DNA of 33,787 nt from a virus. The position numbers were made by a program, and so were the translations under genes. Positions within the stretch are counted from its first letter, which is position 1. Every line of letters begins with the position of its first letter. The notes below the pieces were generated by a model that saw nothing but the letters and a program-made list of their open reading frames with translations, made no database searches and was not told where the DNA came from. Positions 1,741 to 28,019 of the stretch are shown in pieces. Where the stretch lies: IMG/VR virus record IMGVR_UViG_3300043427_004668, positions 1 to 33,787 of that record; one strand, 5' to 3'.

Positions 1741-2879
1741 ATAACATAGACCGTCAGTATAAAGAACTATTAGAACACATCTTACATTTTGGTGTAGATA
1801 AGAAAGACCGTACAGGTACAGGAACCAAATCAATCTTCGGTTGGCAAATACGTCATAATATGAAAGAAGGATTTCCATTACTTACAACAAAAAAAATGGC
1901 GTGGAAAACTATGGTAACTGAATTGTTATGGTTCCTTAGAGGTGATACTAATATTAAATTCTTATTGGATTATGATTGTCACATTTGGGATGGTGATGCC
2001 TATAAGAATTATTCTAGTTATGTTATTCAAGAATGGGAAGATGGTTATATAAATGAACTTGAACAAGATAATTTACTGGTTGAATCTTCTAAAGATGTTT
2101 ATAGAAGATTAACAAAAGAAGAATTTATCAACAAAATCAAAACCGATGATGAGTTTGCTAAAAAGTGGGGTGAATTAGGACCAATATATGGTAAGCAGTG
2201 GAGAAATTGGGTATATGATAAAGATTTCGATTATGGTACAGAAAGTAGTGTAGACCAAATCACAAACCTAATCTCAGAACTTAAAACAAATCCTGATAGT
2301 AGAAGATTGATGGTCAGTGCTTGGAATGTAGGTGAATTAAACCAAACGGTACTCCCTCCTTGTCATTATGGTTTTCAAGTTTATACAAGAGAATTGACTT
2401 TTAATGAAAGATATTCTTTATATAGCAACAAACCATATGACGGAAACGCCTATGGAATGATAAATACGTTAGATTATTTAGATGATAAAAATATTCCAAC
2501 CAGAGCAATTTCTTTAATGTGGAATCAACGTTCTGTTGATACATTTTTAGGGTTACCTTTCAATATATCATCATATGCTTTGTTATTAGAAATTATCGCA
2601 AGAGAAGTGAATATGGTTCCTGATGAATTAATTGGTAATTTAGGTGATGTACATCTTTATTCGAATCATATCGAGCAAGCAAAAGAACAGATTATTAGAA
2701 CTCCATACGAATTACCTAAAGTAAAAATAACTGAAAGAAATTGGTACATGCACGAATCAGTTAAAGAGAAATTGGGTGAAAAGAATTTCGGTGAAAAAAT
2801 ATTGAGTTACAGACCTGATTGTTTTGAGTTACTTAATTATCAATCACACCCAAAGATTAAGGCACCATTAAGTAATTAG
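1737..2879 (+). CDS. thyA: Thymidylate synthase ThyA, enlarged phage form
   Basis: Converts dUMP and methylene-tetrahydrofolate to dTMP, supplying thymidine for phage DNA synthesis. Visible hallmarks: DRTGTGTKSIFG (24-35), the PPCH catalytic site with Cys209, RRLMVSAWN (189-197), QRSVDTFLGLPFN (264-276) and GDVHLYSNH (303-311). At 380 aa it exceeds the usual 264-290. The extra length is in two places: about residues 89-145, acidic and Tyr/Lys-rich, before the WGELGPIYGKQWR block; and about 218-258, between the Cys site and QRSVD. All catalytic blocks remain, so it should be active. It is the last gene of the operon and its TAG shares four bases (TTAG) with the stop of the convergent gene. Confidence 0.96.
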   Translation: MNNIDRQYKELLEHILHFGVDKKDRTGTGTKSIFGWQIRHNMKEGFPLLTTKKMAWKTMVTELLWFLRGDTNIKFLLDYDCHIWDGDAYKNYSSYVIQEWEDGYINELEQDNLLVESSKDVYRRLTKEEFINKIKTDDEFAKKWGELGPIYGKQWRNWVYDKDFDYGTESSVDQITNLISELKTNPDSRRLMVSAWNVGELNQTVLPPCHYGFQVYTRELTFNERYSLYSNKPYDGNAYGMINTLDYLDDKNIPTRAISLMWNQRSVDTFLGLPFNISSYALLLEIIAREVNMVPDELIGNLGDVHLYSNHIEQAKEQIIRTPYELPKVKITERNWYMHESVKEKLGEKNFGEKILSYRPDCFELLNYQSHPKIKAPLSN

Positions 2880-3487
2880 TTCCCGATAGGTAGAGTAATG
2901 TATAATTGTAGTAATTTTATTGCATAATATTCTAATCTTCTTGAAACCTTACTCAACTCAATTTCTTGATTATTCTCTTGCATTGCTTTCATGGTTCCTT
3001 GTATCATTTTATATCTGGCATCGTCCGCCATTTCTAAAACCTCTTGGAAATCCTCATTTTCTTCTTTCCCTTCACCATAATATCTTTCAATTCTTTCCTT
3101 ACCCATATGTAAAAGAGGTGCGGCACTAAACATGTTCACAACACCAGAATCTCTAACTTTAAGAAGGTAATTTCTAAAGAATCTCCAGTCAAAATTTTTG
3201 AATATTTCAGGATTTTTTTTAACATAATCGTATATAGGATCACCCGAATTACTTTGTTCATTTAATTGTTCATCCGTGACAAGTTTGAAAACATCATGTT
3301 TTAATAAAAGATTGAGTGTTGATCCATTATCCCAATTAACATGAATAAAATCAAAATCCCTATCAAATGGATCTTGTTCTACACGAGTAACAGTACCCTT
3401 AGTTAAGGGTGGCACGCCTGTTTCACCTTCCATATGAAATAATTGTATTCTATCTCCAACTTTTACTTTAGGATTAACCTTTCTCAT
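2876..3487 (-). CDS. Protein with N-terminal DUF4314-like SH3 fold
   Basis: 203-residue protein of unknown role. The first about 70 residues (VGDRIQLFHM..., PPLTKGTVTRVEQD..., HVNWDNGSTLNLL) match the small DUF4314/SH3-like barrel, a common phage module with a G-D-R-I start and a W-DNGS turn. The remainder is helical and charged and I do not recognise it. The ATG is preceded at 4 nt by ATATTTAT (3492-3499, minus strand), which supports this start. The stop overlaps the thyA stop by four bases. Confidence 0.75.
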   Translation of the reverse strand: MRKVNPKVKVGDRIQLFHMEGETGVPPLTKGTVTRVEQDPFDRDFDFIHVNWDNGSTLNLLLKHDVFKLVTDEQLNEQSNSGDPIYDYVKKNPEIFKNFDWRFFRNYLLKVRDSGVVNMFSAAPLLHMGKERIERYYGEGKEENEDFQEVLEMADDARYKMIQGTMKAMQENNQEIELSKVSRRLEYYAIKLLQLYITLPIGN

Positions 3488-3531: not shown

Positions 3532-4152
3532 ATGAATTATATAATAACAGAAAATCAGTTAAGAAATATCCTTTCAGAAGTTAAAGATAATAGATTTAGT
3601 AATGATCTTAAAACAATGAACTCATTTACTAAAAATATTGTAAATAAAACTCAGAAGACATACGGTATTAATCTTAGATTCCTGTTGAAGTGGGGATCAG
3701 CGATTGGTGGTATGGTTATGCCTTTAGATAATTGGATTAGAACAGGCAAATTTGAATTAAATGATGATCAGATAGCACTAATTTTAATCGGAGTGGCATG
3801 TACTTTCTTTTTTGAGAATAAAAAAATTCTTAAAGAAGTAGTTGATAAAATTAAACAGGAAGGATTATTGAAACATTTTAGAAAAGCTCTTTCTAAAGGT
3901 GAGGAATTAAGACAATCTTTTTTTAATTTTTTAATATCATTGAATCTAACCTTTACCGAAATGGTTGATATGATATCCTATTCTTTTTTAATACCTATAG
4001 TAAATGATTTAGTAGATCTGTCTCATGGTGCTGATATGTATGCAACAGCTGAAACCGTGGCCGAAAGAATGGTTGCTTCTGGTACAATAATTCTTACAGG
4101 AAATATTATTATTGAAGTTGTGAATAAGATACTTAAGCGTTTTTCACAATAA
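3532..4152 (+). CDS. Unknown membrane-associated protein with LTE-type N-terminal segment
   Basis: 206-residue protein that begins with an ITENQLRNILSE segment, one of the recurring N-termini of this window. After it come a polar region and two or three hydrophobic helices (about 50-65, 78-95 and 185-200), so it is probably membrane-associated. No known domain. An I/L-x-E site (LSE at residues 14-16) ends the tag and could be a prohead-protease cleavage point (inference). The 3' end overlaps the convergent gene by 20 nt. Confidence 0.72.
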   Translation: MNYIITENQLRNILSEVKDNRFSNDLKTMNSFTKNIVNKTQKTYGINLRFLLKWGSAIGGMVMPLDNWIRTGKFELNDDQIALILIGVACTFFFENKKILKEVVDKIKQEGLLKHFRKALSKGEELRQSFFNFLISLNLTFTEMVDMISYSFLIPIVNDLVDLSHGADMYATAETVAERMVASGTIILTGNIIIEVVNKILKRFSQ

Positions 4153-9949: not shown

Positions 9950-10576
9950 TTACCAAGCATTTTTCGAAGATAGACCTAATTGTTTTGCATATCTACCAAC
10001 ATTACAAGACCAATACCCTGCGGTAGTTCTATCTTTTTTTTCAGAGCACTTATGTCTAGCTCTAAATGATTTTGCTGCTTTTTTGTTAGCGTTTTTGACT
10101 TTTAATCCAGGATCACCAAATGTAACTTTTTTTACACCACCACCAGGTTTTCTAACATACACCGCAAATTTTTTCGGACCACCCGGTGTTCTAAATGGTT
10201 TTCCAAGTTTTACATTTTTACCTCTATGTTTCGCTTCTTCCAAAATTTCTTCCTCAGTCCAAGATTCCAAGATAAAAGGTGCATCTAAGTAAATTAATTC
10301 ACCATTAATTTCTGTTATTGATCCTAAATCTGACTCAACCATTTGGACATCTTCCTCATTTAACTCAATTAATTCTTCATTCCAAAGATCTCTAACCTCA
10401 TTAATTAAATCAAAATATGCTTGGGAATAAACTCTATATATGTTATTTGTCAACGATAATTTGTTATCTATATGATACTTCAAAGAATCAGAAATTTTAA
10501 TGTCTTCTTTAAGAATCAATGTTGGTTCTTTATAATTTTCTAATACCTCTAATATTAAATCTTTTAAGTTTTCCAT
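9950..10576 (-). CDS. Likely head/scaffold-associated phage protein
   Basis: 208 residues. The C-terminal about 70 residues (KKFAVYVRKPGGGVKKVTFG, DPGLKVKN, SFRARHKCSEKKDRTTAGYWSC) match a short conserved module common in T4-like and large marine phages. I recall it from genes near prohead and core genes, but its function is unknown to me. The two Cys and the His in RARHKC/YWSC suggest metal binding. The N-terminus MENLKDLILEVLE is acidic and amphipathic with an L-x-E site, reminiscent of a capsid-targeting sequence. It heads the four-gene run 8882-10576 and is close to the membrane-protein genes upstream. Confidence 0.68.
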   Translation of the reverse strand: MENLKDLILEVLENYKEPTLILKEDIKISDSLKYHIDNKLSLTNNIYRVYSQAYFDLINEVRDLWNEELIELNEEDVQMVESDLGSITEINGELIYLDAPFILESWTEEEILEEAKHRGKNVKLGKPFRTPGGPKKFAVYVRKPGGGVKKVTFGDPGLKVKNANKKAAKSFRARHKCSEKKDRTTAGYWSCNVGRYAKQLGLSSKNAW

Positions 10577-13449: not shown

Positions 13450-13866
13450 ATGAAAAATTTATTATTACTGTTATTTTTAACTTTATCTATCTCTTGTAAT
13501 AAAGTATCTGAGGAAAGTGTGATTATAGACAATGTCGTTATCGAAACTCCTATTATAACTGAAGAAAAAGTAACAATTCCTTTAGAATCAAGTGATTCTA
13601 TGAGGAGTGCTAGAGTTAGATCGAAAGATACTATTGTAATGAATGGTAGAGTTAGACCTAGTGATGGATCAACCCCTGTTGATACAACAAGAAAACCACG
13701 AGTAAGATCGAGTAATACTCCAACTCCTGTTGATACAACAAGAAAACCACGAGTAAGATCGAGTAATACTCCAACTCCTGTTGATACAACAAGAAAACCA
13801 CGAGTAAGATCGAGTAATACTCCAACACCTGTTGATACAACAAGAAAACCGCGAGTAAGATCGTAA
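13450..13866 (+). CDS. Lipoprotein with Arg/Thr/Pro tandem repeats
   Basis: 138 residues. Signal and lipobox are MKNLLLLLFLTLSISC with Cys16. After an acidic region, the C-terminal half is a repeat of the 17-residue unit PVDTTRKPRVRSSNTPT. There are three full copies and a fourth that ends at RVRS, encoded by near-identical 51-bp DNA repeats. The repeats are basic, Pro/Thr-rich and probably disordered; they could bind peptidoglycan, LPS or nucleic acid. The preceding degenerate copy (RARVRSKDTIVMNGRVRPSDGSTP) suggests growth from an ancestral motif. Confidence 0.8.
   Translation: MKNLLLLLFLTLSISCNKVSEESVIIDNVVIETPIITEEKVTIPLESSDSMRSARVRSKDTIVMNGRVRPSDGSTPVDTTRKPRVRSSNTPTPVDTTRKPRVRSSNTPTPVDTTRKPRVRSSNTPTPVDTTRKPRVRS
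13675..13863 (+). repeat. 51-bp coding tandem repeat (3.7 copies)
   Basis: Units start at 13675, 13726, 13777 and 13828 (partial). They are identical except for isolated changes such as CCA to CCG and ACT to ACA. Repeat length is a multiple of three, so copy number can change without frameshift. Confidence 0.93.
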
Positions 13867-14373: not shown

Positions 14374-14386
14374 GTATTTATCTTTG
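14374..14386 (+). promoter_or_regulatory. Composite box GTATTTATCTTTG, N4-ATG
   Basis: The phage octamer GTATTTAT (14374-14381) overlaps a host-type -7 box TATCTTTG (14379-14386) that ends 4 nt before ATG 14391. Initiation about 5-7 nt downstream would give a leaderless or nearly leaderless PPK2 mRNA. Confidence 0.55.
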
Positions 14387-14390
14387 TACC

Positions 14391-15488
14391 ATGGAAATAC
14401 TTAACGAAGAATTATCAAGAATAAAATCAGTAATGGGTATCAATGAAGAGGAAACTCCTATCATGAACCCTAATTTGGATAAAACAATAGAAATCCTAAA
14501 ATATCTTAAATTATATAAAGGACCTATTGAAAAGATGTTATTAGATATCTCTAAAAAAGCGAAAAATCAAATTATTGATTTTGGTCTTTTAGAAAGAGGA
14601 TTAAGAAAAGTATTATTGAAAAAGGGTGATAAGAAAAAGAATGTTGAATCTTATTTTGGTAAGGTTTTGACTTCATTACAATATAGAGATAGATCCGGGT
14701 ATGGTGTAGAACCAGAATTTGACGACTATGATTTTGAAGATGAGGAACCGTCAATCTTATCTAAGAAAGTTTATAAAAAAGAACTTTTCGATTTACAAGT
14801 TGAATTGTTGAAATTACAGGAGTGGTTAAAGAAAACCGGAAAAACTGTAATAGTTGTTTTTGAGGGTAGAGATTCTGCAGGAAAGGGATCTTCAATTAAG
14901 AAATTTGTTGAAAACTTAAACCCAAGATATTACAATGTAATTGCTCTTGGAATTCCAACTCCTGAAGAAAGAAAATCATGGTGGGATAGATACAAAAAAC
15001 AAATCAGACCAGGAATGATTAATCTATTTGACAGAAGCTGGTATAATAGAGGGTTAGTTGAACCTGTTATGGGTTATGGTAGTGCAGAAGAATATGAGGA
15101 CTTTATGGAGAATGTTGAAAATTTTGAAAATGATTTAGTTAAAGAAGGTGATTACCTTTTTAAGTTATGGTTCTCAATCGATAAAGAAACTCAAAAGAGA
15201 AGATTTGATATTAGACAAAAATCACCATTAAAATACTGGAAGTATTCCCCTAACGACGCAAAAATGCAAGATCTATGGGATAGATTTACTGAGTTCAAAG
15301 AAAAACTATTTGACAAAACTTCAACAGTAAATCACCCTTGGGTAATCATAGATGCTGAAGATAAACGTATCTCAGGTTTGAATTCAATTAGATATGTACT
15401 TCAGAATATACCGTATGAGGATAAGAACAATAAGGTTTTAGATGTTGAATATCCTGAAGTAGTTACGGTATTGAAGCCTCAGAACTAA
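14391..15488 (+). CDS. ppk2: Polyphosphate kinase 2 (PPK2) with N-terminal LTE-type segment
   Basis: Transfers phosphate between polyphosphate and nucleotides, mostly making ATP or GTP from diphosphates. The kinase core is at about residues 130-352 of 365: Walker A FEGRDSAGKGSS (Lys165), the Asp-Arg-Ser-Trp-Tyr-Asn-Arg Walker B/lid at 214-220, VMGYGSAEEY and LLKYWFS-like KLWFSIDKE segments. The N-terminal about 130 residues are extra and start with EILNEELSRIKSVMGINEE, similar to the other tagged proteins here. ATG 14391 is preferred over GTG 14367 because the promoter box would otherwise lie inside the gene. Phage PPK2 is unusual; the subclass (ADP or AMP substrate) cannot be decided by eye. 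Confidence 0.93.
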   Translation: MEILNEELSRIKSVMGINEEETPIMNPNLDKTIEILKYLKLYKGPIEKMLLDISKKAKNQIIDFGLLERGLRKVLLKKGDKKKNVESYFGKVLTSLQYRDRSGYGVEPEFDDYDFEDEEPSILSKKVYKKELFDLQVELLKLQEWLKKTGKTVIVVFEGRDSAGKGSSIKKFVENLNPRYYNVIALGIPTPEERKSWWDRYKKQIRPGMINLFDRSWYNRGLVEPVMGYGSAEEYEDFMENVENFENDLVKEGDYLFKLWFSIDKETQKRRFDIRQKSPLKYWKYSPNDAKMQDLWDRFTEFKEKLFDKTSTVNHPWVIIDAEDKRISGLNSIRYVLQNIPYEDKNNKVLDVEYPEVVTVLKPQN

Positions 15489-19904: not shown

Positions 19905-20765
19905 TTAATAGTTCCCAATAAGTGTAAGTGGTTTTGGATTTTGTATTGCAGTAATTAATTCTTCTTCAATTTTATCAGGAGGAAACTTATAATGAATCCT
20001 AATTAAATTAATATTATTTTTTTTACAAAATTCATTTTTGATATTATCATTTTCTTTTGTAGTTTCAAATTTTTCACCACCAAATTTTTTACTTGGTCTA
20101 AAGTGTTGTTCCCCATCAAATTCAATTATAGTTTTTAATTTAGGTAAATAAAAATCAAATCTCAATGGTCGACAGTACTTTCCTTTTTTAGTATTAACAC
20201 AATTGTCAAAAAATACCTCTCTATTTGGACAATTCCTATATGAAAGACAATTAACATCGATAAGTCCATTATCAACTAATATTTTGGAAATTTGACGTTC
20301 TCCTGATGATTCTTTTTCAAAAACAAAATGTGATGTTATTTCATCATAAAACTCTTTCCCTCTTTTTTGTGATGCATTAAAATACAATGGAGAATTTCTT
20401 TTGAACTCTGATGAAGTTTTGAACTTCATAGCCTCATCGGATAACTCCTGATCAGAATATTTTAACTTACTTTCAATAAAATCAAATCTACAACCTTGTC
20501 CTTGTAAATGTTTTGACGGTCTGATCGTAAAATATTCATTTCCAGTTTTTTCAATCCATTTATCTTTATGTTTTGGACATATGATTTTTACAGGTGTATT
20601 TGAATCTTGATAATCCACCAAAGAATAATCGTACTTTGGAGTGCCGTCGCTATTAACATGTATCTTTTTAGATTTTTCAATAAATGTATCAGTACTCAAC
20701 TTATTCTGACCACCTCTTTGTTCCAAAAAACGAAAATATTGAGATTCCGTTAATATAATATTCAT
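19905..20765 (-). CDS. DUF723 plus Vsr-like PD-(D/E)XK nuclease with LTE-type segment
   Basis: 286 residues. It starts NIILTESQYFRFLEQ, the tag-like N-terminus. Residues about 45-95 (YDYSLVDYQDSN, KIICPKHKD, HLQGQGC) are a DUF723-like zinc module found in phage nucleases. The C-terminal 130 residues are a very-short-patch-repair-like nuclease: Asp204 in LRFDFYLP, Glu215 in IIEFDGEQH, and a terminal IHYKFPP. Enzymes of this type cut DNA or act in homing. With the tag in front, packaging into the virion as an ejected nuclease is a testable idea. Confidence 0.82.
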   Translation of the reverse strand: MNIILTESQYFRFLEQRGGQNKLSTDTFIEKSKKIHVNSDGTPKYDYSLVDYQDSNTPVKIICPKHKDKWIEKTGNEYFTIRPSKHLQGQGCRFDFIESKLKYSDQELSDEAMKFKTSSEFKRNSPLYFNASQKRGKEFYDEITSHFVFEKESSGERQISKILVDNGLIDVNCLSYRNCPNREVFFDNCVNTKKGKYCRPLRFDFYLPKLKTIIEFDGEQHFRPSKKFGGEKFETTKENDNIKNEFCKKNNINLIRIHYKFPPDKIEEELITAIQNPKPLTLIGNY

Positions 20766-22280: not shown

Positions 22281-22571
22281 TTATATGAAAAAATCTAAAT
22301 ATTTTTTTACTGTTCTTCTGATTGTTGGTTTATCAATATGATTAAACTTATCTTCTATTAAACCAAAAATCTTATTAACCAAAAACTTTTTATTTCCCTC
22401 AATCCAATAGGATTTATTATTAACCGTAATCATATTTGGAGAAAATCCGCCGATATCTATAACAGGATTCCCCACAGGAAAATTTCTTCTAAGATGACGT
22501 AGGACTTCATCTGAAGTATTATCACTATATTTTTTTAATATATCTTCTCTTTCTTGTTCTGATAATATCAT
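22281..22571 (-). CDS. Hypothetical protein with LTE-type N-terminus
   Basis: 96 residues beginning MILSEQEREDILKKYSD, similar to the tagged proteins of this window. The rest has mixed strands and helices with Lys and Phe-rich ends. It matches no family I know. The ATATTTAT box lies 4 nt before the start and supports it. Confidence 0.68.
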   Translation of the reverse strand: MILSEQEREDILKKYSDNTSDEVLRHLRRNFPVGNPVIDIGGFSPNMITVNNKSYWIEGNKKFLVNKIFGLIEDKFNHIDKPTIRRTVKKYLDFFI

Positions 22572-22776: not shown

Positions 22777-23061
22777 ATGGATAGGAAGAGGAAAATCTGT
22801 CGCCTAATCGAAAAACATATCAACAAAAAGAATTCCGATGTTATCAAGGAAGCTTATGGTGAAAATTCTTCAATTAAAATACATAATTTAACTTACTCAA
22901 TCACAAATCCTTCAATTTTAGTAGAGGCCGTTATTATGTTGGGTGATGAAATAAATGAATCAGTTATGGATAGAGAAATTGCCGATTATTTGATTCAAGA
23001 AACCTTACCGTATTTCTTTTCAGATATTCCAAGTAAAGTTATGATAAGATGGGATGTTTAA
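22777..23061 (+). CDS. Hypothetical protein
   Basis: 94 residues; basic N-terminal helix (KRKICRLIEKHI), then strands and a hydrophobic helical segment. The end overlaps the convergent gene's stop by four bases (TTAA). No domain recognised. It may be related in style to the 26210 and 33411 proteins, which also start with a charged helix followed by strands. Confidence 0.66.
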   Translation: MDRKRKICRLIEKHINKKNSDVIKEAYGENSSIKIHNLTYSITNPSILVEAVIMLGDEINESVMDREIADYLIQETLPYFFSDIPSKVMIRWDV

Positions 23062-24047
23062 CTCCTTTTTATCCAAGCAATCTTACCCCCACCTCTCAAT
23101 TTATTATAAGGATCCGAATAAACATCTCCACCTATATTGTGAAAAATTAAAGGAACTCCATTTTTTATACCGCCAACAATTCCTAAGTGGGTGTTCATAC
23201 CAAAACCTTTTCCTGTTGAAATAGTATTACCCTTTTTCCAACCCCCTTTACCATCAGAAACGAAGTAAGGTTTACCTGCTTCATAAAAAGCTTCTTCATG
23301 ATGATCTGACGGTGGATAATATATTCCAACCACATCGTCAACCTTTAGATTCGATGGTGAAACATCTTTAATTAACTCCTGTTGAAGTGATTTAATAGAT
23401 TCAACTTGACCACCATTTTTTCTTGCTTTCGGCCCTCCTTGGTTAACTATTTTTTTGAATATATTAAAAACCTTATCAATTTGTTCAGGATTTAATGATG
23501 TATAAGAACTCATAACTCTAGTTCCTGCTTTATCAATATCATGAGCTAACCAAGCATTACCAACTGCAGTAAGTTTTTTTGAAAATTCATTAACAAATGT
23601 ACCACAGTCAGGTTGACCTGCTTTACACACAAAAGTAGAATCTTTATCATTCAGTTTTTCAATTTTGAATTGATCCTTAAATTTTGTATCTATATTTCCA
23701 CTTAAAGCACTGTCTTTTGATGATACTGGTTGAGTTTTATTAGATGTATCTTTTGTTGATTTTTTTGGCAATACAGAACTTTCATAAGCATCCAAAGCGG
23801 ATTTAGTCAATGGGCCGAAATATCCTGTTGGGATCATTGATTTGGTTTTTAGAAGTTTCAAATCCATCAGTTTTTGCTGTAATTTTTTAACATCTCCAAC
23901 TTGTTTTGGATTTTTTCTACCTCCATCACCGAGTTTCAAGTTTTTTGGATTAATATTTTCTTTAGAACCGATATTTGATTGTTCTTGAAGAACCTGATTT
24001 ATTATTCTTCCTAAATCCTGTTCGGTTAATTTTATAATTTTTTTCAT
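23058..24047 (-). CDS. Peptidoglycan-binding, NlpC/P60-like cysteine peptidase with LTE-type segment
   Basis: 329 residues. The N-terminal KKIIKLTEQDLGRIINQVLQ is the tag-like segment. Residues 50-92 are a PG_binding_1-like module (VGDVKKLQQKLMDLKLL, TGYFGPLTKSALDAYE). The C-terminal domain has Cys148 in DCGTFVNEF and His287 in NTHLGIVGG plus His303, which fits a CHAP/NlpC-type cysteine peptidase core. It would cut peptide crosslinks in peptidoglycan. The tag suggests a virion-associated entry enzyme rather than a lysis endolysin, by analogy with tail or core lysins (inference). Confidence 0.78.
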   Translation of the reverse strand: MKKIIKLTEQDLGRIINQVLQEQSNIGSKENINPKNLKLGDGGRKNPKQVGDVKKLQQKLMDLKLLKTKSMIPTGYFGPLTKSALDAYESSVLPKKSTKDTSNKTQPVSSKDSALSGNIDTKFKDQFKIEKLNDKDSTFVCKAGQPDCGTFVNEFSKKLTAVGNAWLAHDIDKAGTRVMSSYTSLNPEQIDKVFNIFKKIVNQGGPKARKNGGQVESIKSLQQELIKDVSPSNLKVDDVVGIYYPPSDHHEEAFYEAGKPYFVSDGKGGWKKGNTISTGKGFGMNTHLGIVGGIKNGVPLIFHNIGGDVYSDPYNKLRGGGKIAWIKRS

Positions 24048-24087: not shown

Positions 24088-24810
24088 ATGAAACATTTTA
24101 TTACCGTAATAATTGTCTCTTTTATGTTCATATCACCAAATATTGAACAAACCCAACAACTTGAAAACAAAGTCAGAATTTATCAAAAAGACTTTTCAAC
24201 AAAAAATAAAATAATCTCCAAAGTTAATATAATTGAATTATATAAAGGTTCTGTGTCTTACAGAATAGTAAATAAAAATCATCGTAAATACGATTTCTAC
24301 ATAAATTCAAATTATTTCACTATAGAAAACGATCCGTTGGGTGAAGTAAAAATAAATGGTAAAACCATAAAAAAAAGAAACAAAAATGGTGGATTTTTTA
24401 CATCGAATGGAGATACACCATCATTTTATTTTAACGACAGACCAAATAATGTCTTATATTCTTCACAAACCCATACCCCAATACTAAAAGAAGGAATTCC
24501 ATATTATAAAATCTTCAATAAAAAATGGGCCAAATATAAACTACCAAGACTTTTAATTGGTGAAAAACGAAACGGTAATATTGTAGTAGTTCATACAATT
24601 GAAAATTCTAAATGTTCCGTTTATGATTTTTATTTGATATCTAAGATGTTAGGATTGAGGAATGCATTGATGTTTGATGGAGGGGCGTCAATTGAAGTTG
24701 GTGTGTCATATAAAAATATAAATTACAAATACCAAACAGTCACTGATCTACAACGTAAAATAGGAAAAGTACCAACACCATCTGTTTTTATTGTGGGTAA
24801 CTTTAATTAA
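24088..24810 (+). CDS. Phosphodiester glycosidase (NAGPA-type), secreted
   Basis: 240 residues with a signal peptide (about 1-20). The NAGPA family signatures are present: RLLIGEKRNGNIVVVHT, a YDFYLISKMLGLRNALMFDGG block and the FDGGAS site (196-201). Family members remove GlcNAc from phosphodiester-linked sugars, for example uncovering mannose-6-phosphate or hydrolysing wall teichoic or capsular phosphodiesters. A phage could use it to strip surface polysaccharide, but the substrate is not known. The stop shares TTAA with the neighbouring SLT gene. Confidence 0.88.
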   Translation: MKHFITVIIVSFMFISPNIEQTQQLENKVRIYQKDFSTKNKIISKVNIIELYKGSVSYRIVNKNHRKYDFYINSNYFTIENDPLGEVKINGKTIKKRNKNGGFFTSNGDTPSFYFNDRPNNVLYSSQTHTPILKEGIPYYKIFNKKWAKYKLPRLLIGEKRNGNIVVVHTIENSKCSVYDFYLISKMLGLRNALMFDGGASIEVGVSYKNINYKYQTVTDLQRKIGKVPTPSVFIVGNFN

Positions 24811-25754
24811 AAACAATTCAAAGAATTCATATACCCATTAACTTCCTCAACGTATCCTATCCCAGTGTGTTTTGGACCTCTCAAATTTGGAAAAAACCCA
24901 TCTACCACCTCATTTTTTTTAACGATCAATTCACCAGGAAATTGTTTTAATTTAGGATCTTTTACTTTTTGTAACAAAGTATTATTAGGGTCAAATGAAC
25001 TTGGGTTGGTATATGGTGAATGCTTTGTTTTGAAACAAGGTGCCATATATAATTCGTGGTTAGTCTTACAATAAGGATAAATTGTTGATTGTTCAGGCAT
25101 ATTATGACCTAAAATTGCCATATCTAAAGCATGATTACCAGTACCATTTATATTTTTAACTATACCATATTTTGATAATATAGGATTAACTGAAGGATTG
25201 GTTTTTAATCCGTTGGATAAAGCCTTTTTATACCTGGTGGTTAGTGAATATAGTACACCTAATCCCTGACTTATTTCGTTAAAAGATTTGTCATAATCAC
25301 CAATACTTTTATCAAGACCATATTTTTTCCATGCACTAGGTGTAAATTGTCCAATCCCTAAACTCTGTGTTCTTTCTGGCCCGTATATTTTTTTCATCCC
25401 CCAATCAATTATAGAACCTAAACCAGCACTACGTAATCTTTCAGAAAATACATCAGAGGATTCTATAAATTGTCCGAACTTAGATTCTCTGCCAATAATA
25501 CCAATCGAAGCTTTTGTAAGTAAAGTTAGTGTGGGAAAATCAACATTTAATTCTTTCATCAAAGTTGATTGATTTGTAATCACATAATCTACGAATAATT
25601 TCAAATTTTCAGGAACACAAGAATAACCTTTTACAGTTTTTTTTGTACTATCTAATTTCGTGTTTGACGTTATTCCAGGTCCAGTTTGTTCGTGAATTAT
25701 TTTTTCAATAATTTCTAAAAGTTCTGATTCTGTTATTTTAATTACTTTTCTCAT
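24807..25754 (-). CDS. SLT/lysozyme-like muramidase with LTE-type segment
   Basis: 315 residues. Starts RKVIKITESELLEIIEKIIHEQ, the tag with an IHE site. Residues about 83-150 hold a lytic transglycosylase-like core: GIIGRESKFGQ with Glu90, then QSLGIGQFTPSAWKKYGL. There is no signal peptide. The C-terminal third is Pro/Asn/Cys-rich and unassigned. Candidate for a virion-carried peptidoglycan hydrolase used at entry. The start overlaps the stop of the upstream coiled-coil membrane gene by four bases. Confidence 0.82.
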   Translation of the reverse strand: MRKVIKITESELLEIIEKIIHEQTGPGITSNTKLDSTKKTVKGYSCVPENLKLFVDYVITNQSTLMKELNVDFPTLTLLTKASIGIIGRESKFGQFIESSDVFSERLRSAGLGSIIDWGMKKIYGPERTQSLGIGQFTPSAWKKYGLDKSIGDYDKSFNEISQGLGVLYSLTTRYKKALSNGLKTNPSVNPILSKYGIVKNINGTGNHALDMAILGHNMPEQSTIYPYCKTNHELYMAPCFKTKHSPYTNPSSFDPNNTLLQKVKDPKLKQFPGELIVKKNEVVDGFFPNLRGPKHTGIGYVEEVNGYMNSLNCF

Positions 25755-26834: not shown

Positions 26835-26864
26835 AAAAGGGAATAATCAAATTATTCCCCTTTT
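26835..26864 (-). terminator. Rho-independent terminator
   Basis: GGGAATAAT-CAA-ATTATTCCC with T runs on both sides. On the minus strand it ends the gene whose stop is at 26852. Confidence 0.82.
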
Positions 26865-27349
26865 ATCATTCCGAGTCCATGTTTCAGGAATTCCTTAGCT
26901 CTTGCGGATAAATAATCCGTTTGATATACTTTTTCAATATCTTTAACCAATTCTTCACCGTGCTTATTCTCTTTGTAAAGTTCAATTATTTTATCCATTG
27001 ATCTATTACAACTCTTATTAGTTTCTTCAAAATAATTGTAAGGTTTGTACGCCTTTAACGAATTCATAATGTTGAATGCCAAATCTTCTCCACCATCAGA
27101 GATTTGTGGATGTAATCTTAGTGTTTTAAGTAGTTCGATCATATCAACCAAACCATTAACACCTTTCTTACGTAACTTAACCCCTTCAATATAATCTTCA
27201 CCTTCAAGGTCACCTACAATCTCCTCTAAAGATTTTGTATTACCTTTATGGCAAAATCTTTTTTCCTCGGACTTTTCCGATTGCTCAAAGAAATAGAAAT
27301 TTCTAATATCCTTTTTTTCTTCTTCTGTTAAAATAAATTGCTTTCTCAT
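26852..27349 (-). CDS. Unknown helical protein with LTE-type segment
   Basis: 165 residues starting at ATG 27349: MRKQFILTEEEKKDIRNFYF then FEQ, the recurring N-terminal form with an FFE end. The rest is helical and charged, with two Cys (FCHKGN...) and no recognised domain. A GTATTTAT box 5 nt upstream supports this start rather than a longer one at 27409. It ends within a terminator. Confidence 0.7.
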   Translation of the reverse strand: MRKQFILTEEEKKDIRNFYFFEQSEKSEEKRFCHKGNTKSLEEIVGDLEGEDYIEGVKLRKKGVNGLVDMIELLKTLRLHPQISDGGEDLAFNIMNSLKAYKPYNYFEETNKSCNRSMDKIIELYKENKHGEELVKDIEKVYQTDYLSARAKEFLKHGLGMIKGE

Positions 27350-27354
27350 AATTG

Positions 27355-27362
27355 ATAAATAC
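27355..27362 (-). promoter_or_regulatory. Phage promoter-like box GTATTTAT, N5-ATG
   Basis: Minus strand, 5 nt before ATG 27349 and 9 nt after the upstream stop. Confidence 0.52.
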
Positions 27363-27371
27363 TTTTTAGTT

Positions 27372-28019
27372 TTAGAATGTGTCGTGAATGAATTTAATTT
27401 TAATTTCATCGCTTAAAACCTCATTAGTAAATGAAAATGGATCATAATCAAATAAGTGAAAATGATTAAAAAAGTAAACATACACCAACTTTGCAGTCTC
27501 AACATCATAAAAGTCTTTATAATCATATTTCATATCGATAGGGTAAACTATATCTCTAAATTCATGATATTCCAAACTACCAATATTTAATAAACTTTTA
27601 ATATTTTTTAAGTCATCCTGTATATTTTCATTTTTTATATATAAATCAGGTATTTTACCCTCAAAAAAAGATTCTTGGAGAGATTGGACTATTTTACTGT
27701 TTTTCCCATAGTCATTTAGGTCAACAACTAATTTCCTTTTCTCAAAACAAATATGAATCCATTCTTTGAAATATTTTATGATTGTGTTCTTAATCTCTTT
27801 AGTAAGTGCAACCCTATGAATAATTTCAAGATTAATAAATAAAGATAAAACCCTTTCATATGGGTTCCTAACACTACAAATGACTTTACAATCTGAAATG
27901 TCTATATTTTCATCAACTAATAATTCAAAACCCAATTTTTCTATTAAAAAAATTAAATTTTCATGAGTAGTTTCATCTGGAATCTTCCACACAAACCCTT
28001 CTTTTTTGTAAATTACCAT
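27372..28019 (-). CDS. Sulfotransferase-like protein
   Basis: 215 residues. CKVICSVRNPYERVLSLFINL (44-64) is the PAPS-binding R-x-P-x-x-R-x-x-S motif of sulfotransferase family 2 (Arg51, Ser59). A late FYDVETAKLVYVYFFNHFHLF segment matches the end of the same family (DxELFxY-like). The usual N-terminal GxxK P-loop is not clear, so activity is uncertain. It could transfer sulfate to phage or host glycans. Together with the glycosyltransferase-like and methyltransferase genes it points to carbohydrate modification. Confidence 0.68.
   Translation of the reverse strand: MVIYKKEGFVWKIPDETTHENLIFLIEKLGFELLVDENIDISDCKVICSVRNPYERVLSLFINLEIIHRVALTKEIKNTIIKYFKEWIHICFEKRKLVVDLNDYGKNSKIVQSLQESFFEGKIPDLYIKNENIQDDLKNIKSLLNIGSLEYHEFRDIVYPIDMKYDYKDFYDVETAKLVYVYFFNHFHLFDYDPFSFTNEVLSDEIKIKFIHDTF

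Follow-up and report, generated by a model that had tools for sequence, protein, structure and literature searches.

The window analyzed here, a stretch of 33,787 nucleotides covering positions 1 to 33,787 of the IMG/VR virus record IMGVR_UViG_3300043427_004668, encodes a polyphosphate kinase 2 (PPK2) preceded by a long N-terminal region that begins with a tag-like segment. This raises the question of what a phage PPK2 uses such a start for, and whether the enzyme is made in the infected cell or brought into it by the virion. Genes were called with our own simple ORF caller, and the parts of the locus are listed below.

14375..14381, + strand: TATTTAT, late-type promoter motif (GTATTTAT), 9 nt before the PPK2 start codon
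14391..15488, + strand: PPK2 gene, complete open ORF of 365 aa (PF03976; virus record)
14391..14447, + strand: N-terminal tag, residues 1-19 (MEILNEELSRIKSVMGINE), proposed capsid-targeting sequence (tag HMM A, 2.3e-9)
14448..14468, + strand: variable linker, residues 20-26, low model confidence, pN/pS 0.62
14469..14690, + strand: phage-specific four-helix region, residues 27-100 (AlphaFold2 helices 27-38, 45-57, 64-75, and 81-100)
14757..15431, + strand: PPK2 catalytic domain, residues 123-347 (PF03976, 5.5e-73; top Foldseek match 5ll0, Francisella tularensis PPK2, 1.3e-22)
14865..14894, + strand: Walker A motif GRDSAGKGSS, residues 159-168, conserved in aligned phage relatives
15030..15050, + strand: DRSWYNR, residues 214-220, counterpart of F. 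tularensis PPK2 D117

The kinase domain and its phage clade

The PF03976 profile matched the window protein with 245.8 bits (curated cut-off 22.3) over profile positions 2-228 of 229, and the core residues of Walker A and DRSWYNR, including K165 and D214, were identical across all 39 phage relatives aligned, variation being limited to positions outside the catalytic residues. The assignment as a PPK2 with intact Walker A and B motifs, made earlier from the letters alone (the sequence-only reading), was thereby confirmed. When the AlphaFold2 model (mean pLDDT 76.7) was compared with the PDB using Foldseek, ranks 1-15 were all taken by PPK2 of F. tularensis or S. meliloti, class II structures following from rank 16 and class III from about rank 33. 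Sequence comparison likewise placed the F. tularensis and S. meliloti enzymes nearest, before the class II and III structures, and the top total score of P. aeruginosa 3czp arose because its two domains add up. The S. meliloti entry 6dzg (SMc02148) is titled class I in the PDB, the F. tularensis PPK2 is an enzyme which we take to be class I, and D214 aligned with D117 of the latter, the residue mutated in 5llf. Judged by model and sequence, the window enzyme is class I-like, being closest to class I and not to class II or III. It resembles the class I enzymes (F. tularensis 5ll0/4yeg; S. meliloti SMc02148, 3czq/6dzg) in kinase fold and motifs, with 41-46% identity in structural alignments, and differs from them in belonging to a phage-only clade and in carrying an added helical region and a tag.

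PPK2 relatives were encoded in 103 of 121 pattern-matching IMG/VR stretches, and the best 80 of these 103 were kept; their loci lie on viral contigs of up to 321 kb. A T4-type (S77) prohead protease was found in 10 and a Gp23 capsid protein in 8 of the 16 relatives' contigs searched, and the window itself (33.8 kb) contains no head genes. Maximum-likelihood analysis separated 56 phage from 56 bacterial rows with 100/100 support, with bootstrap not fully settled and with the closest bacteria only (rows from the best 80 of 594, two patterns, distant bacterial PPK2s lying outside the sample). The bacterial rows represent 56 of 80 loci after removal of edge-cut, motif-less, and redundant ORFs, and the set of phage relatives with the window's tag comprised 50 distinct members of 80. 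The window PPK2, a freshwater phage enzyme, is thus in a phage-only clade on T4-like jumbo-phage contigs. The virus record, the jumbo-phage relatives, and the clade together rule out host contamination, and the view that the gene is phage-encoded and not a contig mix-up with a bacterial chromosome held. The expectation that PPK2 is rare in phages was contradicted by a wider viral scan, in which 324 of 356 pattern-matching IMG/VR stretches encoded relatives (at least 324 places).

One relative, G001, has a gene for ribosomal protein bS21 (PF01165, 1.7e-10) within its head module but on the other strand, an arrangement reported for freshwater Bacteroidota jumbo phages (PMC9723584); the likeness to those phages is one of bS21 placement.

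The N-terminal extension and tag families

The sequence-only reading had described about 130 extra N-terminal residues, such as normal PPK2 proteins would lack. The stretch before the Pfam domain comprises 122 residues, and bacterial relatives also have a leader, Walker A being preceded in them by 84 residues (median) as compared with 161 in the window's phage clade and 179 for the remaining phage lineages, so that the real excess is about 75-95 residues. What stood of the claim is that the region is longer than in bacteria and phage-specific; having a leader is not unique to phages. Within these 122 residues, model and alignment distinguish, from the N-terminus on, a short helix (2-14), a linker with little order (pLDDT under 50 at residues 16-21), the four-helix region, and a second linker. 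At E<=0.01, an HMM of the helical region matched 20 of the 43 N-terminal regions from other phage PPK2s and none of the 56 from bacteria (from the best 80 of 594), and this domain is phage-specific among the sampled relatives.

The tag-like start also proved real. All 80 of the relatives that were kept have it, as do other proteins of these phages (MNLNENISRVKELMGLVSE and similar). Its conserved positions are spaced (E7 37/39, R10 33/39, I11 34/39, M15 37/39, G16 37/39) and their codons vary, and pN/pS was 0.46 in the tag versus 0.62 in the linker that follows. All N-termini of a genome were then compared with one another, pairs with similar bodies being excluded and internal windows of the proteins serving as a control. 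Pairs scoring >=40 numbered 112 in G001, 69 in G003, and 107 in G004, and 3, 5, and 2, respectively, for internal windows. The same test applied to T4 gave 5 versus 1 and recovered the known IPII/IPIII targeting peptide; it also picked homing endonucleases and two baseplate proteins. Starts resembling signal peptides (MKKx-hydrophobic, secretion-type; G003 and Flavobacterium phage immuto) are included in the pair counts and were not used as tags.

Four tag families emerged, namely A (the PPK2 type), B (consensus MKKIVRLTESDLxRIVKRVIKEQ), C (MKYIITESQLxxLI), and D (MxKFIITEEEKxxI). Their HMMs matched 19, 36, 36, and 24 N-termini versus 0, 1, 0, and 0 internal windows; the N-terminal counts are partly circular because the HMMs were seeded from the same genomes, and the internal-window and T4 controls are not. 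Tagged genes made up 7 of 60 in the window, 32/388, 34/373, and 31/369 in three large relatives, and 5/181 and 5/150 in two shorter ones. The HMMs found none in T4 (0/253), immuto (0/210), or parts of RM378 (0/55) and LR756502 (0/101), and one weak match in a part of phi38:1 (1/74). Besides the PPK2 gene, the tagged genes in the window are:

3532..4152, + strand: type C, TATTTAT upstream
19905..20765, - strand: type C, weak (4.2e-3), TATTTAT upstream
22281..22571, - strand: type D, TATTTAT upstream
23058..24047, - strand: type B (MKKIIKLTEQDLGRIINQVLQEQ), weak PG_binding match, TATTTAT upstream
24807..25754, - strand: type B, no TATTTAT upstream
26852..27409, - strand: type D by tag HMM, tag read from an internal Met about 20 residues in

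Profile matches to 105 tagged proteins were few overall and comprised PPK2 (6), M23 peptidase, L,D-transpeptidase, glucosaminidase, peptidoglycan-binding, sigma-70-like, and P-loop kinase domains; no Alt-like ADP-ribosyltransferase was found among them (21 families scanned; 105 of 113 prepared references). Weak internal tag-like matches (E<=1) fell in head modules in 4 of 10 cases, these modules holding 8% of residues, and one of the ten is a likely mis-called start; an enrichment there is suggestive only.

Immuto has tags of its own, of the FDLKKFLVENKLT and LAGIITE types, and we found no virion proteomics for this phage in the literature. In G004 (L145-L158), a 268-kb IMG/VR contig with two S77 proteases and two Gp23 genes, six immuto-type tags are confined to an immuto-like part and 31 A-D tags to the other. 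Gene affinities change near 118 kb, from immuto-like (0-118 kb) to G001-like (118-268 kb), which argues against one phage with two head modules; the contig is therefore probably two phages joined in assembly.

Protease-type ends and the late-type promoter motif

The tag of the window PPK2 ends in INE, and its sequence offers possible prohead-protease sites after E6 (LNE) and E19 (INE). The pattern [LIV]xE occurred within residues 2-26 in 87 of 91 tagged N-termini, 423 of 1040 untagged ones, and 377 of 1131 internal windows. Among PPK2 starts it was found in 50/50 of the window's clade, 29/35 from other phages, and 15/56 bacterial ones (from the best 80 of 594). The 35 are what remained once redundant rows had been dropped, together with ORFs in which Walker A lies <60 or >200 residues from the start, a filter that takes out the large fusions; six of the 35 resemble the clade with tag A, without which the count is 23/29, and the pattern is absent from 6 of the 35. 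The major-capsid propeptides of the same phages, with the cut placed by alignment with T4, end LINE/A or LINE/S, that of immuto IVSE/A, and that of T4 gp23 LTE/A.

Starts in the T4 record include MKTYQEFIAE and MELITE, and IPI has a 19-residue stretch ending TITE, after which it is presumably cut. According to PMC9026906 and PMC3012670, T4 internal proteins are loaded via an N-terminal peptide of about 10 residues that is removed by gp21, and foreign proteins fused to this peptide are packaged and delivered. In PMC5694885, Alt is cleaved at ITE-6 and LTE-619, and there, as in PMC9026906, tag-bearing proteins stay in the heads and enter the next host. The phages studied here share with T4 IPI-IPIII and Alt a short N-terminal peptide common to unrelated proteins of one phage, and a hydrophobic-x-E end; a T4-type protease and a Gp23 capsid protein occur in the window's phage group, in 10 and 8 of the 16 relatives' contigs, respectively. 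They differ in the tag sequences, in having several families in each genome, with some 30 proteins tagged, and in a cargo that would include a metabolic kinase, whereas that of T4 is an anti-restriction protein or an ADP-ribosyltransferase; moreover, packaging is demonstrated for T4 and proposed here. Since the tags show no similarity to the T4 targeting peptide, and their HMMs match none of 253 T4 genes, the tag may work like that peptide by analogy and is not a member of its family.

A second line of evidence concerns the TATTTAT motif, the fuller form of which ([AGC]TATTTATA) precedes many late genes. With orthologues assigned by similarity to immuto's annotated genes, it lay within 60 nt upstream of 26/40 structural genes (sheath, tube, protease, portal, and others) and 0/20 replication genes. 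Among genes with >=30 nt of free upstream space it preceded 45/49 tagged, 17/25 structural, 0/13 replication, and 155/368 other genes (P values for this comparison ignore relatedness between genomes). It occurred in 7 of 1157 windows inside genes, before about 25% of unclassified genes, and directly upstream of 0/5 major-capsid genes. Ahead of PPK2 it is kept in 42 of 48 distinct relatives. A PPK2 made late and plausibly useful early is what packaging predicts. We also considered a host sigma (TAnnTTTG) promoter for PPK2, a copy of which lies 4 nt before the ATG in the window. We read it as a chance overlap, because only 3 of the 48 relatives have TAnnTTTG within 40 nt, in none of them with the gap being 3-6 nt, as compared with 42 that have TATTTAT. 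As a separate observation, of the genes having TAnnTTTG within 40 nt, 9 of 27 (G001) and 11 of 37 (G003) show a distance of exactly 4 nt from it to the start codon, a spacing that hints at leaderless transcripts from host-type promoters.

Proposed packaging, rival readings, and other PPK2 lineages

By analogy with T4, we consider it probable that the PPK2 tag is a T4-style capsid-targeting sequence and that the enzyme is packaged in the head and injected with the DNA. We infer the following course of packaging, cleavage, ejection, reaction direction, and benefit: (i) PPK2 would be synthesized late in infection, from the late-type promoter; (ii) the 19-residue tag, as a functional analogue of the T4 sequence, would load it into the prohead; (iii) the S77 protease would cleave it after INE; (iv) the mature enzyme, consisting of the helical region and the kinase, would be ejected with the DNA into the next host; and (v) there it would recharge ADP/GDP to ATP/GTP from host polyphosphate, ahead of any phage gene expression. 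The sequence-only reading had left it between an enzyme brought and one made by the phage, and the tag together with the late-type promoter favors the former.

Some chance, although a small one, must be given to a conventional auxiliary metabolic enzyme, made and acting in the infected cell, with the tag serving localization, stability, translation, or partner binding. PMC13188868 lists virus-encoded ppk2 among auxiliary metabolic genes and describes its transcription, packaging of PPK2 is a proposal, and many tagged proteins are small unknowns. However, the late-type motif ahead of PPK2, absent ahead of replication genes, is odd for an enzyme feeding early replication, and the tag ends in a prohead-protease motif and differs across phage lineages that have the same enzyme. 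Less probable again is a late energy supply, in which PPK2, brought by its tag to the outside or inside of the prohead, would fuel the DNA-packaging motor with ATP and would not be injected; the late-type motif and a head-associated tag fit it equally well, but in T4 the proteins so tagged remain in the head and pass into the next host (PMC9026906 and PMC5694885), and the occurrence of PPK2 within polyvalent-like proteins, described below, points to delivery. A kinase domain without activity, retained in an internal protein for a structural or polyphosphate-binding role, is very improbable, given its invariant motifs and a pN/pS of 0.10.

The enzyme also occurs in other lineages. The 642-kb phage LR756502 and its kin have the same kinase with a different start (MINNFIKFINEE), and adjacent genes begin with MKYLKRFNEE and MENIKSFDSFNE. 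As a further point in favor of packaging, other phage lineages have their own, different xxE tags on this enzyme, and some neighboring genes share those tags, with 15 N-terminal versus 2 internal matches among 442 neighbors. Contigs of these lineages had S77 above the cut-off in 2 of 17 cases and below it in 6. Separately, an S77-like domain below the cut-off was seen in ORFs of about 700 aa on contigs of another PPK2 lineage (L275, L280, L282, L288, and L298).

Members of the phage PPK2 clade were, in addition, seen embedded in ORFs of 550-2377 aa (L293, L300, L308, L310, L315, L334, and L335), the largest being L308:5080-12210 (2377 aa), L315:5080-10086 (1668 aa), and L293:5071-8418 (1115 aa). 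These very large ORFs are possibly polyvalent proteins, which PMC5512222 proposes to be injected; like those, relatives embed the phage PPK2 in ORFs of 521-2377 aa, one of them with a peptidoglycan-binding domain. The window protein differs in being a single enzyme with a tag and a helical region; only its relatives are fused, and it does not combine several disparate catalytic domains. A further gene of the window is linked to PPK2 by such fusions:

2876..3487, - strand: DUF4314-like protein; in L334 and L335 a PPK2 domain is inserted between its N- and C-terminal halves

No N-terminal tag was found on the PPK2-DUF4314 fusions of L332, L334, and L335.

More broadly, the tags nearly all end in a prohead-protease motif and their genes are mostly preceded by TATTTAT, and we lean slightly toward a multi-tag address code in Bacteroidota-type jumbo phages, in which interchangeable, mostly late-driven tags would load about 30 proteins per genome, including a generator of ATP/GTP from polyphosphate, the kinase lineage being re-tagged or fused elsewhere. 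If so, the energy metabolism for starting an infection would arrive in the cell with the virion itself. Should packaging of PPK2 be true, an energy-metabolism enzyme would be delivered by a phage as protein and not only as a gene, and the reading of viral "auxiliary metabolic genes" would change, the tag and promoter telling when and where an enzyme acts. The sequence rule of shared tag, [LIV]xE end, and TATTTAT promoter would then mark dozens of proteins whose function is unknown, in abundant freshwater phages, as predicted to be injected. We found no report of a packaged PPK2 in the literature on phage PPK2 and such tags, subscription journals being mostly outside reach, nor by term look-up in the main texts of PMC9723584, PMC5512222, PMC7824862, PMC12619734, PMC7162821, and PMC13037316; that of PMC5512222 contains neither "polyphosphate" nor "PPK," and that of PMC9723584 does not contain "polyphosphate."

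Two other genes of the window may be mentioned. The protein encoded at 9950-10576 (- strand) lies near PPK2 in 77 of the 80 relatives' loci and has homologues, nearly all annotated as hypothetical, in immuto and in Methylophilales and Pelagibacter phages. The ORF at 13450-13866 (+ strand) is lipoprotein-like, with tandem repeats of about PVDTTRKPRVRSSNT recognized by eye.
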